The notes under the pieces are model-generated. The model was not told where the DNA came from. It was given only the letters and a program-made list of their open reading frames with translations, and ran no database searches. From a virus, in the IMG/VR virus record IMGVR_UViG_3300027754_000293, positions 1 to 31,539 of that record: DNA of 31,539 nucleotides; one strand, written 5' to 3'. Positions 6,025-31,539 of the stretch are shown here, in pieces. Position 1 is the stretch's first letter. Each line of letters begins with the position of its first letter. A program made the position numbers and the translations under genes.

Positions 6025-6894
6025 ATGAGAACAATCAACGAAATATACAATTCAATTATTGCCGAAAAGGAATCGAATGTCGCGTTGACAACATTGGATC
6101 CGTCGGCCGGCGAAAACGCAACCGCGTTATTGTCCGAACTTTCGTCCGGATCGAAAGTCGCAATTTGGCGTTTGATTTTTTGGATCACCGCGGTCGCGAT
6201 TTGGTTTTTGGAAAACATATTCGATTTACACGTCAAAGAATTGACGGCGTTGTCCGAAACATTCGTCACCGGAACGCCGCGTTGGTATTATGCCAAATGT
6301 TTGGAATTTCAATTTGGTGACGTGCTGATATACGATTCAATAAATTATCGGTTCAATTATTCGCCAATCAACACAGCCAATCAAATCGTCAAACGTTGCG
6401 CGATTTTAGATTTGGGCGGATTGGTTTCAATAAAGGTCGCGAAATTGTCGTCCGGAAATCCTGTTCCGTTGACTGTTCCGGAATTGGCGTCGTTTTCTTA
6501 CTATGTGAATTTGATAAAATTCGCCGGAACCAACGTGAATATCATTTCGATTCCGGCCGATTTAATGAAAATTTATTTGTCGGTTGTGATTGATCCGTTG
6601 GTCCTATTGCCGAACGGCGAATCGATCGCAAACGCCGGAACCTTTCCGGTTGCGGACGCGGTCGATAATTACATAAAAAATTTGCCTTTCAACGGAATAT
6701 TGAATTTGACGTTTTTGGTTGATAGTTTGCAAACGGTTTCCGGCGTGACAAATCCGGTTGTCGTGTCCGCGGACGCGAAAACATATTTGTCAACATACAC
6801 GACGATCGATCGCGTTGTTGGATACACGCCGGCGTCCGGATATATCAACATTGATCCAGGGTTTCCATTGTCAACAACAATCACCTATTTGTGA
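6025..6894 (+). CDS. Baseplate J-like protein (Mu gp47 type)
   Basis: A 289-residue protein beginning RTINEIYNSIIAEKES, with a hydrophobic helix at IWRLIFWITAVAIWFLENIF (residues 47-66) and then LHVKELTAL. This arrangement is typical of the short J-like baseplate wedge proteins of Bacteroidota phages, where the hydrophobic helix is a packing element rather than a membrane anchor. The C-terminal half (LPNGESIANAG, AVDNYIKNLPFNG) fits the alpha-beta domains of gp47. Position before an I-like gene and fiber supports it. It overlaps the next gene by four bases (GTGA). Confidence 0.62.
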   Translation: MRTINEIYNSIIAEKESNVALTTLDPSAGENATALLSELSSGSKVAIWRLIFWITAVAIWFLENIFDLHVKELTALSETFVTGTPRWYYAKCLEFQFGDVLIYDSINYRFNYSPINTANQIVKRCAILDLGGLVSIKVAKLSSGNPVPLTVPELASFSYYVNLIKFAGTNVNIISIPADLMKIYLSVVIDPLVLLPNGESIANAGTFPVADAVDNYIKNLPFNGILNLTFLVDSLQTVSGVTNPVVVSADAKTYLSTYTTIDRVVGYTPASGYINIDPGFPLSTTITYL

Positions 6895-9946: not shown

Positions 9947-10298
9947 GGGTGACACGGTTGTCGCGATCACGATTCCGCAAATGGACGCGATTTCGGAACG
10001 TTTAATTGATTGCCAACGTTTGTCATTGGCGGATTCGCTAATCGACGCCAAATCAACGGAAAGCAAGGAATTGACGGAGTTGACGAAAACCCAACGCGAA
10101 CAGATCGCGGAATTGAATTCGAACGTGACGGATTTGACCGATTTGTCCGACATTCAAACGCAAATTTCCAACAACAAAGATTTGTTGTTTGCCGAACAGA
10201 AAAGAAAAAACCGGCGAAACCTTTTAATCGGTTTGCCGGTTGGAATTTCGTTTTCGGTCGTTGCCGGTTTATTTATCGGAATCTTTGCCGTCCGTTGA
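9855..10298 (+). CDS. Signal-peptide protein with C-terminal membrane segment, spanin partner candidate
   Basis: A 147-residue protein whose start lies inside the Rz-like gene in a different frame (92-base overlap). The N-terminus is a clear signal peptide (KLFATVAVLLLTNVSIFSQ) without a lipobox cysteine. The middle is a helical, acidic coiled-coil region (about 45-110). A basic patch KRKNRR precedes a C-terminal membrane segment (LIGLPVGISFSVVAGLFIGI). Such two-ended proteins occur in Bacteroidota phage lysis cassettes; it could be a unimolecular spanin-like protein lacking the lipid anchor, or a partner of the Rz-like protein. Its last 30 bases overlap the end of the convergent ATPase gene. 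Confidence 0.5.
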   Translation: MNKLFATVAVLLLTNVSIFSQTKFPAKIQFEGDTVVAITIPQMDAISERLIDCQRLSLADSLIDAKSTESKELTELTKTQREQIAELNSNVTDLTDLSDIQTQISNNKDLLFAEQKRKNRRNLLIGLPVGISFSVVAGLFIGIFAVR

Positions 10299-11510
10299 TT
10301 CGTTGATTCTAATTTCCAATTTTCCGCCGGAACGATCAACCTGTTCGACGAACAATTGAACGTCGTTTTCCGCGGACCAATCGTTGATCAATTTCATGTT
10401 GTCGTTGTCAATCAATGATCCGTCAAACTTTAAAATCCGAACACCTTTCAACAATTTCAATCCGATTCGCAATCCGGCAATCAATTGATTGGCCGTGTTG
10501 ATTTGCGTATTTTCGAACGGCAATCCTTTGAACAGAAATTTTTCACCGTCAAACGAAAGGTCCGGAATGTCAATCGATTCGGACAATTGATCGCGTTTTG
10601 ATTTCTTCTTTTCGTCCATTTTGCGTTCCGTTTCCGCGATTTCGTTTTCAACCTTTTTCAACTTCTCTGAATTGATCTTTGCTGATTTGTTGGTTGCGAT
10701 CAATTGGTTTTCCGATTCGGCCGTGTCAATTTGCGATTGGATCGTTTTGTATTCCATTTCTGAAATTGGTTGGTTGTCCGTGTTATTCAACCAAACCTTT
10801 CCGTCCGTCACTTCTTTTTCCAATTTTTCGATTTGTGAACGGAGGTCGATCAACTTGTTTTCACGGTCCGCAACACCGGTCAACACCTTTTCAAATGTTT
10901 GACGTTTTTTGTCGTGTTCGATTTTCATTTCGAACAGTTGTTTCACGTTCACCGGTTCGCGATCGGCAATTGTAGGATCGAACCAAACGTTCGAATCGTC
11001 TTTTAGTCGTTTCAATTCTTTGTTCATAAATGAACGTTGTTCGAATAGTTCGGCAACGTCACGATCGATCGTTCCGAAATCCAATCCGATCAACGAACAA
11101 AAATATTCAACTTGTTTGTTGGCGGACAATTCAAAAAAGTGATTCGGGTTGAAATCGATCACGCCGATCAACTGATTCAAAACGGTTCGCGGTTGTTCGA
11201 TTGATTCGCCGTCCTCTTTCGAAATTAGTTTGAATGACGTTTTGATTTTTGTTTGATCGCGTTGGCGTTTGAAATCCAGGATCGCAACGTGTTTTTCCAA
11301 TTCGATTTCGATTGTCGATTCGTTTTCACCTTGTTTGATCGGTTCGGTCGGAACGTTTTTTCCGGTCAACGCGCACCAAACCGCGTCAATAAAAGAAGTT
11401 TTTCCTTTGCCGTTGCCGCCAACGACATAAACGTTTGATGAATGTAAATCGGATTCGATCCGGTCGATTCCTTTGAAATTTTTGATTTTGATTGTTTCGA
11501 TTTTTGACAT
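10269..11510 (-). CDS. SMC/RecF-like P-loop ATPase (AAA_23 type)
   Basis: A 413-residue protein, last gene of the leftward early block. It starts IKIKNFKGIDRIE, the usual first strand of RecF/SbcC heads, with Walker A GGNGKGKTS at residues 31-39. A coiled-coil region runs about 190-315. The C-terminal part has NTAN near the signature position and ILKFDGSLIDNDN as a Walker-B-like stretch, with Gly where a catalytic Glu is usual. Phages often carry this ATPase next to an SSB-like gene; a role in recombination or DNA-end handling during replication is likely but unproven. Its 3' end overlaps the convergent lysis gene by 30 bases. The leader reads ATCAAAACCAATG. Confidence 0.75.
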   Translation of the reverse strand: MSKIETIKIKNFKGIDRIESDLHSSNVYVVGGNGKGKTSFIDAVWCALTGKNVPTEPIKQGENESTIEIELEKHVAILDFKRQRDQTKIKTSFKLISKEDGESIEQPRTVLNQLIGVIDFNPNHFFELSANKQVEYFCSLIGLDFGTIDRDVAELFEQRSFMNKELKRLKDDSNVWFDPTIADREPVNVKQLFEMKIEHDKKRQTFEKVLTGVADRENKLIDLRSQIEKLEKEVTDGKVWLNNTDNQPISEMEYKTIQSQIDTAESENQLIATNKSAKINSEKLKKVENEIAETERKMDEKKKSKRDQLSESIDIPDLSFDGEKFLFKGLPFENTQINTANQLIAGLRIGLKLLKGVRILKFDGSLIDNDNMKLINDWSAENDVQLFVEQVDRSGGKLEIRINESTDGKDSDK

Positions 11511-12836: not shown

Positions 12837-13100
12837 TTAAAATAATCGTTGAACAGTTGCAATGTGTTTTCCGTCTTTGTCGGACATGATCATTGTTGGT
12901 TTGTTTTTAAAAAATAGTTCGGCCGGTTCGATCGTATCAAATCCGATAAAAACGCGTCCGCCAATATTGCATATAAAATATGCAAGGTCCGCGGAAAGTC
13001 TTATTCGCGTTTGTTGTTGCAATCCTTTTCCCTTTGCAATTGCTAGTTGTAATAATTCCGCGTTGTTGCCGGCCGGTTGTGTTGTTGACGTTGTTGTCAT
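12837..13100 (-). CDS. Hypothetical protein, 87 aa
   Basis: First gene of the leftward block. The N-terminal 30 residues are Thr/Gln/Asn-rich and probably flexible; the remainder (SADLAYFICNIGGRVFIGFD onward) looks like a compact alpha-beta domain ending HIATVQRLF. I do not recognise it. The start at 13100 lies about 37 bases downstream of the predicted start point of the leftward promoter, so it should be among the earliest products. Confidence 0.55.
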   Translation of the reverse strand: MTTTSTTQPAGNNAELLQLAIAKGKGLQQQTRIRLSADLAYFICNIGGRVFIGFDTIEPAELFFKNKPTMIMSDKDGKHIATVQRLF

Positions 13101-13143
13101 TTTGCTTTTGTTTTTGTGTCATTGGTGAATTCCTTTGACCGTG

Positions 13144-13174
13144 CAAATATCGGAATCAAAACGGAATTGACAAA
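13144..13174 (-). promoter_or_regulatory. Leftward early promoter candidate (Bacteroidota type)
   Basis: On the minus strand TTTG (complement of 13171-13174) is followed after 19 bases by GATATTTG (complement of 13144-13151), close to the Bacteroidota pattern TTTG-N19/20-TAnnTTTG with one mismatch in the -7 box. It would start transcription about 37 bases before the gene at 13100. The -33 box lies inside the TTGACAA/TTGTCAA dyad. Confidence 0.5.
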
Positions 13175-13223
13175 AATAGTTGTCAACATTTTTCGATTTG
13201 CTATGTTGACAAATAAAGTTGAC
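13167..13223. promoter_or_regulatory. Operator-like repeats in the divergent control region
   Basis: TTGACAA at 13167-13173 faces TTGTCAA at 13180-13186. A perfect 10-base inverted repeat, TTGTCAACAT (13180-13189) and ATGTTGACAA (13203-13212), is separated by 13 bases. A further TTGAC lies at 13219-13223. Sites are spaced 13 bases apart in two pairs (13167/13180 and 13206/13219). The first pair covers the leftward -33 box; the second covers the area where a rightward promoter would be. Confidence 0.6.
13191..13221 (+). promoter_or_regulatory. Weak rightward early promoter candidate
   Basis: TTTC at 13191-13194, a 19-base spacer and TAAAGTTG at 13214-13221 give an imperfect Bacteroidota-type promoter for the rightward early genes, with a leader of about 75 bases. 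Two mismatches make this tentative. The rest of 13224-13302 shows nothing I can name. Confidence 0.3.
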
Positions 13224-13302
13224 GCGTTTTGTTGTTGGTTCGGATTTCTTTTCCGTTTATTGCGCCGCGGTCGGAGTTACCGGACGCAATGAAAAACCAA
13301 TC

Positions 13303-17690: not shown

Positions 17691-17933
17691 ATGAAAACAA
17701 AACAATTCAAACAACAAAACAGATCAATCACACGAAAAACCGTCACACGTGGCAAGGAATCGACGGAACCGGTTCATTTTTACACGAACGGCGCGTCGTC
17801 GGTATGTTGTATCAAAATGACGTTCACTGACCGAATTCGAATCCTATTCGGCGAAAACCTTTGGTTGATCGTAAAAGGAGGGATTCCGATTTTTGATTTG
17901 CAAACCGAAAATCCGTTCGCGGCCAAAAAGTGA
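17691..17933 (+). CDS. Small conserved-looking phage protein, 80 aa
   Basis: A basic N-terminal half (KTKQFKQQNRSITRKTVTRG) and a C-terminal part with MTFTDRIRILFGENLWLIV, a short phrase I associate with small proteins of Bacteroidota phages and elements but cannot name. It ends at the first TGACC repeat, whose TGA is the stop codon. It could be an origin-adjacent accessory factor. Confidence 0.5.
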   Translation: MKTKQFKQQNRSITRKTVTRGKESTEPVHFYTNGASSVCCIKMTFTDRIRILFGENLWLIVKGGIPIFDLQTENPFAAKK

Positions 17934-18170
17934 CCAAAGGTGACCGGAGTTTGGAAAAGTGCAATCAGTTGAAAATCAAACCGTTGTATTGTTTTTGACC
18001 AAAGTGACCAGGCCGCCCACGTGTTTTCCTTAGAGAATATTACGAACACAATATATAAAAAGTAAAAAGGTATAGGAATAGATTGGTCAGATTGGTCAGA
18101 TTGGTCAACGTATTGAAAACCAACGTTTTGCAAAATCAAAAAGTGACCGGATCGACCAAAGTGACCGGAG
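17931..18170. other. Iteron-like repeat array, candidate replication origin
   Basis: About ten copies of a TGACC-centred 9-base unit (TGACCAAAG or TGACCGGAG) occur in a non-coding stretch: 17931, 17941, 17996, 18005 on the plus strand; three inverted copies (GGTCA) at 18085, 18094 and 18103, exactly nine apart; then 18144, 18153 (one mismatch) and 18162. An AT-rich segment (about 18030-18080) sits between the plus-strand and inverted groups, as a duplex-unwinding element would. Similar 30-base blocks flank the region at both ends. It follows the primase-helicase. Alternatives are a late-promoter regulator array. Confidence 0.6.
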
Positions 18171-18209
18171 TTTTCGAAGTTTTTTGATAATCGTATAAAA
18201 AAATAGACA

Positions 18210-24748: not shown

Positions 24749-25174
24749 GTGGCAAAGACATTCAATTTCGCGGCCAAAATAAAGGCATTATCTAACGCCA
24801 AATCACGGATTCCGGATTTGTTGGCCGGAATATCTTTGCGACATTTCCAACGTTCATTTAAAAACCAAGGATTCACGGACCAATCGTTCAATCCGTGGGT
24901 TGAACGAAAAACGCGCAATCGATCCGATCGAAACAATCCGAAAAAACGGCGCGCGATTTTGGTTGATTCCGGAACGTTGCGGAAATCCGGAAAAATTAAA
25001 ATTGCAACGTGGAAACGCGTTGTCGTTGGTTTTTATGGTACCAATTACGGAACATTCCACAATCGCGGATTGGGAAACAATCCGAAACGTCAATTCATTG
25101 GCAATTCGAAAGAATTGACCAGGTTGATCGAAAAGGAAATCAACAATCATTTGTCAAACATTTTAAGATCATGA
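24749..25174 (+). CDS. Phage virion morphogenesis protein (Mu gpG-like)
   Basis: A 141-residue basic protein starting at GTG 24749; a stop lies in frame only nine bases upstream so no earlier start exists. Motifs typical of the gpG/gp31 family: SLRHFQRSFKNQGF, then PWVERK, ILVDSGTLRKSGKI, YGTNYGTFHNRGLG and RQFIGNSKEL. The family helps head assembly or tail joining. It sits between MuF and the tail completion protein. ATGA overlap with the next gene at 25171. Confidence 0.82.
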   Translation: MAKTFNFAAKIKALSNAKSRIPDLLAGISLRHFQRSFKNQGFTDQSFNPWVERKTRNRSDRNNPKKRRAILVDSGTLRKSGKIKIATWKRVVVGFYGTNYGTFHNRGLGNNPKRQFIGNSKELTRLIEKEINNHLSNILRS

Positions 25175-26007
25175 AAAAAGAATTATTCGAAGCAATAAAG
25201 GCGCGATTGGTTGCGCGCGTTCCGGCAATCAAAACGATCGCGTTGTTCAATGATCAATTCAACAACGAACAGAAAAACAATCCGTTCAAATATCCGGTTT
25301 GTTTGATTGAATTCGATTCGTTCGATTGGAAATCGCAATCACGCGGAATCCAGGTCGGAACATTGAATGTCCGGTTCCATTTGGGCGTTGAAACCTACAA
25401 AACGAACCTTTCGTCCGGACGAACCGATCAACCGAATGATTTAGAATTTTTCGATTTGATCGCGGCGGTTCATGTCGCGGTGAATATGTTTGACGCGTAT
25501 TTTTTCACGCCGTTGTTGCGTGTTTCCGAAACACAGGACACCAATCACGACAATATTTTGGTTTGGGTTGCCGAATATAAAACACAGATCACCGACGACA
25601 ACGCGGAAAAGATCCAGGCCAAACAATTGGTCAATTTTATTCCGGACGAAACGAACGCGTTGACATTGAATATCAACTTTCCGAACGTATTGGTTGACGA
25701 CGTTGAATTGGTTGGTTGTTGGTGGTGGTTCGCCGGATCCAATCCGACCGTTGTTCATTTATATTGGCGTTTCAATTTGTTGGACGTTGATCCGGACGTG
25801 TTGGTTTCTGTTCAATACAACAACGGAAACGGTTGGATCACCGTTGCGTCCGCGTTGCGGTCAACGTTTACGGACGGCGACGGAATAAACAATCAATCCA
25901 TTTCACACGCGACAACAATGACACAAATCGATCCGCCAACGGTCAACGCGCGCGTTGTGTTGAATGGAATAGGACATTCCAACGAATTGATTATCTTACA
26001 AGACTAA
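25171..26007 (+). CDS. Tail completion/terminator-like protein with C-terminal beta domain
   Basis: A 278-residue protein from the ATGA start. Residues 1-155 (FEAIKARLVARVPAIKTIAL, NPFKYPVCLIEF, FHLGVETYKT) have the mixed alpha-beta layout of tail terminator or Mu gp37-like proteins. Residues 165-278 are a separate beta-sandwich-like part (NINFPNVLVDDVELVGCWWW, LYWRFNLLDVDPDVLVSVQY), Ig-like in strand rhythm. Function inferred from position between head genes and a minus-strand gene. Its 3' end overlaps the convergent gene by four bases. Confidence 0.5.
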   Translation: MKKELFEAIKARLVARVPAIKTIALFNDQFNNEQKNNPFKYPVCLIEFDSFDWKSQSRGIQVGTLNVRFHLGVETYKTNLSSGRTDQPNDLEFFDLIAAVHVAVNMFDAYFFTPLLRVSETQDTNHDNILVWVAEYKTQITDDNAEKIQAKQLVNFIPDETNALTLNINFPNVLVDDVELVGCWWWFAGSNPTVVHLYWRFNLLDVDPDVLVSVQYNNGNGWITVASALRSTFTDGDGINNQSISHATTMTQIDPPTVNARVVLNGIGHSNELIILQD

Positions 26008-26201
26008 TATTTATTCCGTCCGGCGGTTTTTGGTTCCGGAATTTCTTTGGAATAATCTTTCCAAATGGTGAAAGGTGAAAGAAACAAATGGTCCGCGATT
26101 TCTAAAACAGCGGATTCAACTTTCGTTCCGGCCGGTCGCGAATTGATTGTTTTTTGAATGTAGGCCGCGCGTTTGATTGACGTTGATTCGTTTTTTTTCA
26201 T
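26004..26201 (-). CDS. Small helix-turn-helix protein, antisense within head operon
   Basis: A 65-residue protein from ATG at 26199-26201 (a longer 91-residue form would use an upstream ATG with unlike composition). It is basic at both ends, with KVESAVLEIADHLFLSPFTIW at 33-53 fitting helix-turn-helix spacing (VLEIADHLFLSPFTIWKDYS). It is the only minus-strand gene in the structural region. The leader AAAACCAATG and a good promoter upstream suggest early, independent expression. It may be a repressor or a late-gene timer. The recognition motif in its own promoter region resembles the divergent control region. Confidence 0.6.
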   Translation of the reverse strand: MKKNESTSIKRAAYIQKTINSRPAGTKVESAVLEIADHLFLSPFTIWKDYSKEIPEPKTAGRNKY

Positions 26202-26254: not shown

Positions 26255-26268
26255 ATTTATCAACATAG
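26255..26268 (-). promoter_or_regulatory. Operator-like motif shared with the early control region
   Basis: The minus-strand sequence CTATGTTGATAAAT matches CTATGTTGACAAAT at 13201-13214 in 13 of 14 positions. Both copies lie in non-coding DNA beside promoter candidates; this one sits just upstream of the -33 box of the HTH gene. Confidence 0.5.
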
Positions 26269-26277
26269 ATTCGCAAC

Positions 26278-26544
26278 ATGAAAAAGATGAAAGTTTATAT
26301 CAACGCAATGTCACCGGTTGACATCGTCACCGTTCAACACGAAACGGAGGGCGAACAGCAATTCTTGAACACGACAAACATTTCCGAATTGGCAACGGAC
26401 GCGGATCCGGTGACATACGACACCGGCGGCCGCGAATTTAAAGTTCAAAGATTTTCGTTTAAATACGACGTGACGTTTTTGGTTTCTTTGGACGCCGATC
26501 CGTTGTTGTGTTCAAACGGTGACGTCTATCAAAAAATTGCATAA
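26278..26544 (+). CDS. Hypothetical head-region protein, 88 aa
   Basis: A small protein with a beta-rich look (KVYINAMSPVDIVTVQHETE, FKVQRFSFKYDVTFLVSL). Not recognised. It starts at ATG 26278, or at 26287 if the second Met is used. It is the first plus-strand gene after the antisense HTH gene and shares one base with the protease gene (TAATG). Probably a minor structural or assembly protein. Confidence 0.55.
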   Translation: MKKMKVYINAMSPVDIVTVQHETEGEQQFLNTTNISELATDADPVTYDTGGREFKVQRFSFKYDVTFLVSLDADPLLCSNGDVYQKIA

Positions 26545-31400: not shown

Positions 31401-31539
31401 GTCGTTATAAAATACGCGGCAACGCAAAAAGTGAAACGGATGAATTGCGAAAAATGAACGCGTTGATCCGTTTTTATTTTAAAGTCGATCCGGCGGAATT
31501 GTCGGACGAACAATTCGCGATTTGTTGGAATGATTTGAA
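31379..31539 (+). CDS. Tail chaperone -1 frame extension, 3'-truncated by contig end
   Basis: This frame has no usable start after the TGA at 31367-31369, is open to the edge of the window and continues at position 128 after circular closure, where it stops at 174-176. It begins NELEETLSRYKIRGNAKSET. Its continuity across the joint is independent support for a circular molecule and for the frameshift. Confidence 0.78.
31413..31539. repeat. Terminal direct repeat, right copy (circular overlap)
   Basis: Identical to positions 1-127, as described for the left copy. Removing one copy gives a unit of 31,412 bp. Confidence 0.95.

Follow-up and report, generated by a model that had tools for sequence, protein, structure and literature searches.

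A candidate operator word shared by the promoter of a small antisense helix-turn-helix gene and the early control region of a phage genome

The DNA analyzed here, referred to as the window, is the entire 31,539-bp IMG/VR record IMGVR_UViG_3300027754_000293. Since its first 127 bases recur exactly at its end as a direct terminal repeat (1-127 = 31413-31539), we consider the record to be probably complete, the genome measuring about 31.4 kb and being either circularly permuted or terminally redundant. After rotation, its gene order is largely collinear with that of the Flavobacterium phages lotta8-1 and FPSV-S1 (Winoviridae). Of the relatives identified, the 13.5-kb contig L001/L022 is the nearest, with a DNA identity of about 68-73% over the aligned late genes. 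Searches of viral contigs with the helicase, VapE, AAA ATPase, and HTH proteins, and of genome contigs with the helicase and HTH proteins, recovered no close relative other than L001.

A 65-aa protein is encoded at 26004-26201 (minus strand), antisense to the late structural genes that surround it and next to the gene for the head maturation protease. Its homologs occur in L001 (56% identity), in FPSV-S1, in lotta8-1 (gp33), and in several viral contigs; those of lotta8-1 and FPSV-S1 are 38-47% identical and sit in the same antisense place by the head protease gene, a position that is conserved in most relatives and that, together with the homology, assigns the protein to a Winoviridae-type HTH family. 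Some helicase-bearing relatives gave no match to it, and the lotta8-1 and FPSV-S1 records carry no transcriptional regulator annotation. In the isolates, a second gene of the antisense operon (gp32 in lotta8-1) follows the HTH gene co-directionally, unlike in the window, where no such gene was found. Instead, a longer late-strand gene (25009-26007; compare L017:18856-19365), the start of which is homologous to gp31, lies tail to tail with the HTH gene, as it does in L001.

The helix-turn-helix nature of this small protein, announced by the first-pass annotation, is supported by its predicted fold, and the gene is a conserved phage gene. The AlphaFold2 model (pLDDT 83.7) contains three confidently modeled helices at residues 3-20, 28-39, and 43-50, the last two forming the putative HTH, and its structural neighbors, although weak, are mostly HTH DNA-binding domains, the closest (Z about 5) including those of DeoR and KorB in complex with their operators. 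At the sequence level, no Pfam or PHROG family was detected at E values up to 1, membership in HTH_3/XRE was not found, and a search of the PDB with the HTH family gave at best an E value of 0.25 (SpoIIID). We describe the DNA-binding fold of the 65-aa protein as predicted.

Upstream of this gene, in the 76-bp gap that separates it from an 88-aa gene at 26278, lies a first copy of the motif, CTATGTTGATAAAT (minus strand, 26255-26268). An in-frame ATG at 26279 would place the motif inside a 91-codon ORF; because the close homologs of the HTH protein all start with MKKN or MRKN, and because the spacing between motif and ATG, which is 65 bp in the window, is 1 bp longer in L001 (66 bp), we discount this extension as not being a conserved frame. 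The start of the HTH gene is most likely at 26201 (MKKN...).

Flavobacterium promoters carry a TTG element at -33. Promoters were predicted by combining such an upstream TTG with the Flavobacterium -7 consensus TAnnTTTG (PMC9723704). By this approach, a putative promoter of the HTH gene extends over 26252-26221 on the minus strand, with TTTG at 26252-26249, a 20-nt spacer, and TATTTTCG at 26228-26221, and the motif lies upstream of it, its end separated by 2 bp from this TTTG, the predicted -33 box. The TTATTTTCGTCTTTAC block of this promoter is kept in L001 and is present as ATTTGTCTTTA in most relatives.

Comparison with L001 delineates a footprint at this site. The 12-mer TATGTTGATAAA is identical at 12/12 positions upstream of the orthologous HTH gene (L001 4934-4945), whereas its flanks retain only 11 of 33 identical columns before it and 8 of 26 after it (∼30%), conservation picking up again at the -7 region TTATTTTCGTCTTTAC. 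Such a 12-mer is expected by chance in shuffled L001 upstream DNA with a probability of about 1e-4. Moreover, the 13.5-kb L001 contig contains a single exact copy of the core ATGTTGAYAA, located exactly upstream of the HTH gene; the same word is thus conserved at the predicted promoter of the putative regulator gene in both genomes. The L001 copy has an inverted partner at another spacing (TCAACA-N6-TGTTGA), and no clear inverted partner was found for the HTH-side copy of the window, unlike in L001 and in the early region.

The second copy of the motif, CTATGTTGACAAAT (plus strand, 13201-13214), lies in the early control region, a 202-bp gap (13101-13302) between two divergent operons. The leftward operon comprises the p87 gene (12837-13100), a gp04-like gene, and an AAA ATPase gene (10269-11510), and the rightward operon encodes a DUF1508 protein (from 13303), a helicase (from 13701), and a VapE-like protein (from 15448). 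The core of this copy (13203, plus strand) and another exact core (13180, minus strand) form a perfect 10-bp inverted repeat, TTGTCAACAT-N13-ATGTTGACAA (13180-13212), with arms about two helical turns apart. An arm of this length arose in 27 of 1,000 shuffles of the region and, given the core, the probability of a second exact copy in the 100 bp upstream is 0.003. A second inverted pair, TTGACAA-N6-TTGTCAA (13167-13186), shares a half-site with the first.

These operator-like repeats lie over both predicted early promoters. The rightward one would span 13179-13209 (plus strand, GTTG-N19-TATGTTGA), TATGTTGA occupying the -7 position, and the 10-bp inverted repeat covers its predicted -33 and -7 boxes, an occluding position of the kind that a repressor would take if the promoter is correctly predicted. 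We propose this inverted repeat as a candidate operator. The second pair covers the -33 box of the predicted leftward promoter (13144-13174, minus strand), which consists of TTTG, a 19-nt spacer, and GATATTTG at 13151-13144. An RNA-level explanation was also considered and rejected: the window yielded neither an Rfam match nor a tRNA, and the predicted folding of the early 5' leader is not stronger than that of shuffled sequences (z -0.8).

The first-pass annotation had linked the two copies as a 13/14 motif, non-coding and beside promoter candidates at both places, and had proposed that one regulator controls both. Both 14-mers are indeed present exactly as described, on the strands given above, each in an intergenic gap and each adjoined by predicted Bacteroidetes-type promoter boxes. 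On its own, however, the 13/14 pair is weak evidence because the search space for shared intergenic 14-mers is large: when all intergenic 14-mers are considered, 77% of dinucleotide-shuffled intergenic sets contain at least one pair with ≤1 mismatch, and when only these two regions are shuffled, 5 of 300 shuffles match the observed pair. When the window was scanned for the 14-mer at ≤1 mismatch, three sites were found against 0.08 to 0.13 expected under Markov models, the third being within a coding sequence (6785-6798, minus strand); at ≤3 mismatches, there were 19 sites against an expectation of 7 (dinucleotide shuffle) to 10-13 (Markov).

The exact core ATGTTGAYAA has four occurrences in the 31.5-kb window (13203+, 13180-, 26257-, and 6787-), three of which fall within the two short control regions. 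Words of the TTGWCAAC type are over-represented in the window genome generally, mostly in coding DNA. The fourth core belongs to a group of three copies or near-copies, GTATGTTGACAAAT, CAATGTTGATATAT, and TTGTTGACAA, within 93 bp of a gp47-like coding sequence (6785-6877, minus strand), which we regard as probably incidental. The word was also compared with the DnaA box TTATCCACA; its reverse complement contains TTATCAACA/TTGTCAACA, which deviates at an essential position of that box, and this reading was rejected.

Based on the 12/12 footprint in L001, the core counts, and the early inverted repeat, we suggest that ATGTTGAYAA is likely a real regulatory word common to the HTH promoter and to the early control region. 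The claim of a shared regulatory element therefore stands on the conserved HTH-side copy and on the perfect inverted repeat around the early copy, and not on the bare 13/14 pair.

Our current working hypothesis treats ATGTTGAYAA as an operator half-site of the phage. Two inverted half-sites in the early region would straddle the -33 and -7 boxes of the rightward promoter while the neighboring pair would overlap the -33 box of the leftward one, and because half-sites sit on these boxes of both early promoters, binding would block early transcription. Autoregulation would then come from the lone copy that immediately precedes the -33 box of the HTH promoter. The binder would most likely be the 65-aa HTH protein, a plausible candidate that would be expressed antisense, inside the late region, from a promoter of its own and would turn the early genes down as a small Cro-like repressor. 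An autoregulated small phage repressor that also acts on the early promoter is, in our opinion, the best explanation of the data, and we hold it tentatively, at somewhat less than even confidence. Against it count the absence of a clear inverted partner at the HTH-side copy of the window, the general frequency of TTGWCAAC words in the genome, the chance expectation for a bare 13/14 pair, and the failure to find a shared word in the more distant relatives.

The reading that comes next keeps the operator and changes the binder, which could be either an unrecognized small protein expressed early by the phage, such as the 87-aa product of 12837-13100, or a transcription factor of the host; the HTH gene would then simply count among its targets. 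The evidence for the site, namely, the L001 footprint, the cores, and the inverted repeat, does not single out a binder, no family was matched for many of the early proteins encoded in the window, and the pairing was not seen in distant relatives that nonetheless retain the HTH protein. On the other hand, the 65-aa protein is the only orphan HTH protein recognized in the window, the other HTH-like match being the protein at the small-terminase position, and autoregulation is the usual arrangement among small phage regulators. We consider another binder possible but clearly less probable than the HTH protein.

It is also conceivable, albeit rather unlikely, that the shared word is mainly a promoter element, that is, a -7 box of the TAnnTTG type (TATGTTG), either SM5-like or a degenerate TAnnTTTG. 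As in the sigma-A and SM5 promoters of Flavobacterium, TAnnTTTG or TAnnTTG boxes and a TTG at -33 are recognizable at both loci, and the SM5 consensus is TAnnTTGY (PMC9723704). In the window, TATGTTGA at 13202 has a GTTG 19 bp upstream and sits where relatives have TACTATGTTTGCA, and the L001 motif likewise has an ATTG 19 bp upstream. Since relatives carry TACTATGTTTGCA or a similar word at this place of their rightward promoter, CTATGTT at 13201 may partly reflect a -7 box. Yet TAnnTTG is followed by A in place of the SM5 pyrimidine at both sites, no TTG lies 17-23 bp upstream of the HTH-side copy of the window (TAnnTTG at 26267), which is therefore not in -7 position to any TTG, and the motif sits upstream of the HTH promoter that is shared across the family. 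Furthermore, the identity runs on over AYAAA(T), past any -7 box, and the inverted arm (13180-13190) does not read as a TAnnTTG box. A -7 box thus can account neither for the AYAAAT portion nor for the inverted arm, nor for the HTH-side copy of the window.

Finally, although pairs this good are common in shuffled intergenic sets and the inverted repeat, taken by itself, would arise by chance in ∼3% of cases in its region, the simple encounter of an AT-rich word at two places, with a coincidental L001 match and a coincidental inverted repeat, appears improbable given three partly independent low-probability agreements on one core.

The first-pass annotation had also pointed to related phages as a place to look for the same pairing, and the answer was mixed: L001 keeps the HTH-side site, but across seven more distant relatives that have both loci, the top word common to the two regions is no better than in shuffles. 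Neither lotta8-1 nor FPSV-S1 contains the exact core, the shared site was not recovered when the motif was searched in lotta8-1, lotta8-2, FPSV-S1, FPSV-S27, and FPSV-D3 as other family members, and no locus with at least two exact cores in the upstream stretch was found in helicase-bearing viral contigs. Because the distant relatives share no word above chance and because the 13.5-kb L001 contig does not include the early region, the pairing of both sites is known from one genome only, that of the window.

The window and L001, both of which carry the site, have the same sequence, LFLSPFTIWKDY, in the region of the predicted recognition helix, which reads SEDTIWKDF or SEPTIWNDY in relatives without it. 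Since the proteins of the relatives differ at the predicted start of the recognition helix (SEDTIW or SEPTIW versus SPFTIW in the window and L001), it is possible that the operator changed along with this helix between lineages, a comparison of two sequences with the rest that must be taken as anecdotal. The wider proposal, that the whole phage family possesses an autoregulated HTH repressor, encoded antisense to the late structural operon and acting from afar to silence the promoter of early replication, with operator and recognition helix co-evolving between lineages, appears unlikely to us in this full form.

The arrangement proposed for the autoregulated repressor resembles that of the Cro/CI-type repressors in combining a small, predicted HTH protein, half-sites placed in inverted orientation over early promoters that diverge, and a copy at the regulator's own promoter. 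It differs in that the HTH gene of the window lies ∼13 kb off, antisense in the late structural genes, and does not adjoin the early control region, in that the 65-aa protein has no HTH_3/Cro family match, and in that the relatives lotta8-1 and pippi8-1 were isolated as virulent phages (PMC7077304). If true, the mechanism would be conventional, of an ordinary kind in phage gene control. Should the HTH protein prove to bind at both places, it would nevertheless offer a first handle on the control of the early-to-late switch in Winoviridae, as well as a small repressor-operator pair usable in Flavobacterium genetics.

The word TTGTCAACAT/ATGTTGACAA is also found as an inverted repeat in six unrelated viral contigs (L011-L016). 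These palindromes have longer arms (11-17 bp), and the contigs show no match to the helicase, HTH, or p87 proteins of the window and no detected homology to its phage, so that the likeness is one of analogy only. In L012 (2449-2493), a palindrome with 17-bp arms lies between an HTH_3 repressor gene and an antirepressor-like Bro-N/ORF6C gene, an arrangement that by analogy would be that of a typical phage switch.

A separate feature is the non-coding gap that follows the VapE-like gene and precedes the VRR-NUC gene, in which short words are repeated in direct and inverted orientation in the window (17924-18173), lotta8-1, and FPSV-S1 (L017:10807-11106 and L018:22060-22321). The words differ in each phage, being TGACCAAAG/GATTGGTCA in the window, ATTGGAACA/TGTTCCAAT in lotta8-1, and GGTTACACAA/TTGTGTAACC in FPSV-S1. 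We suggest that this gap, conserved in position and not in sequence, is likely an iteron-type replication origin or a packaging site.
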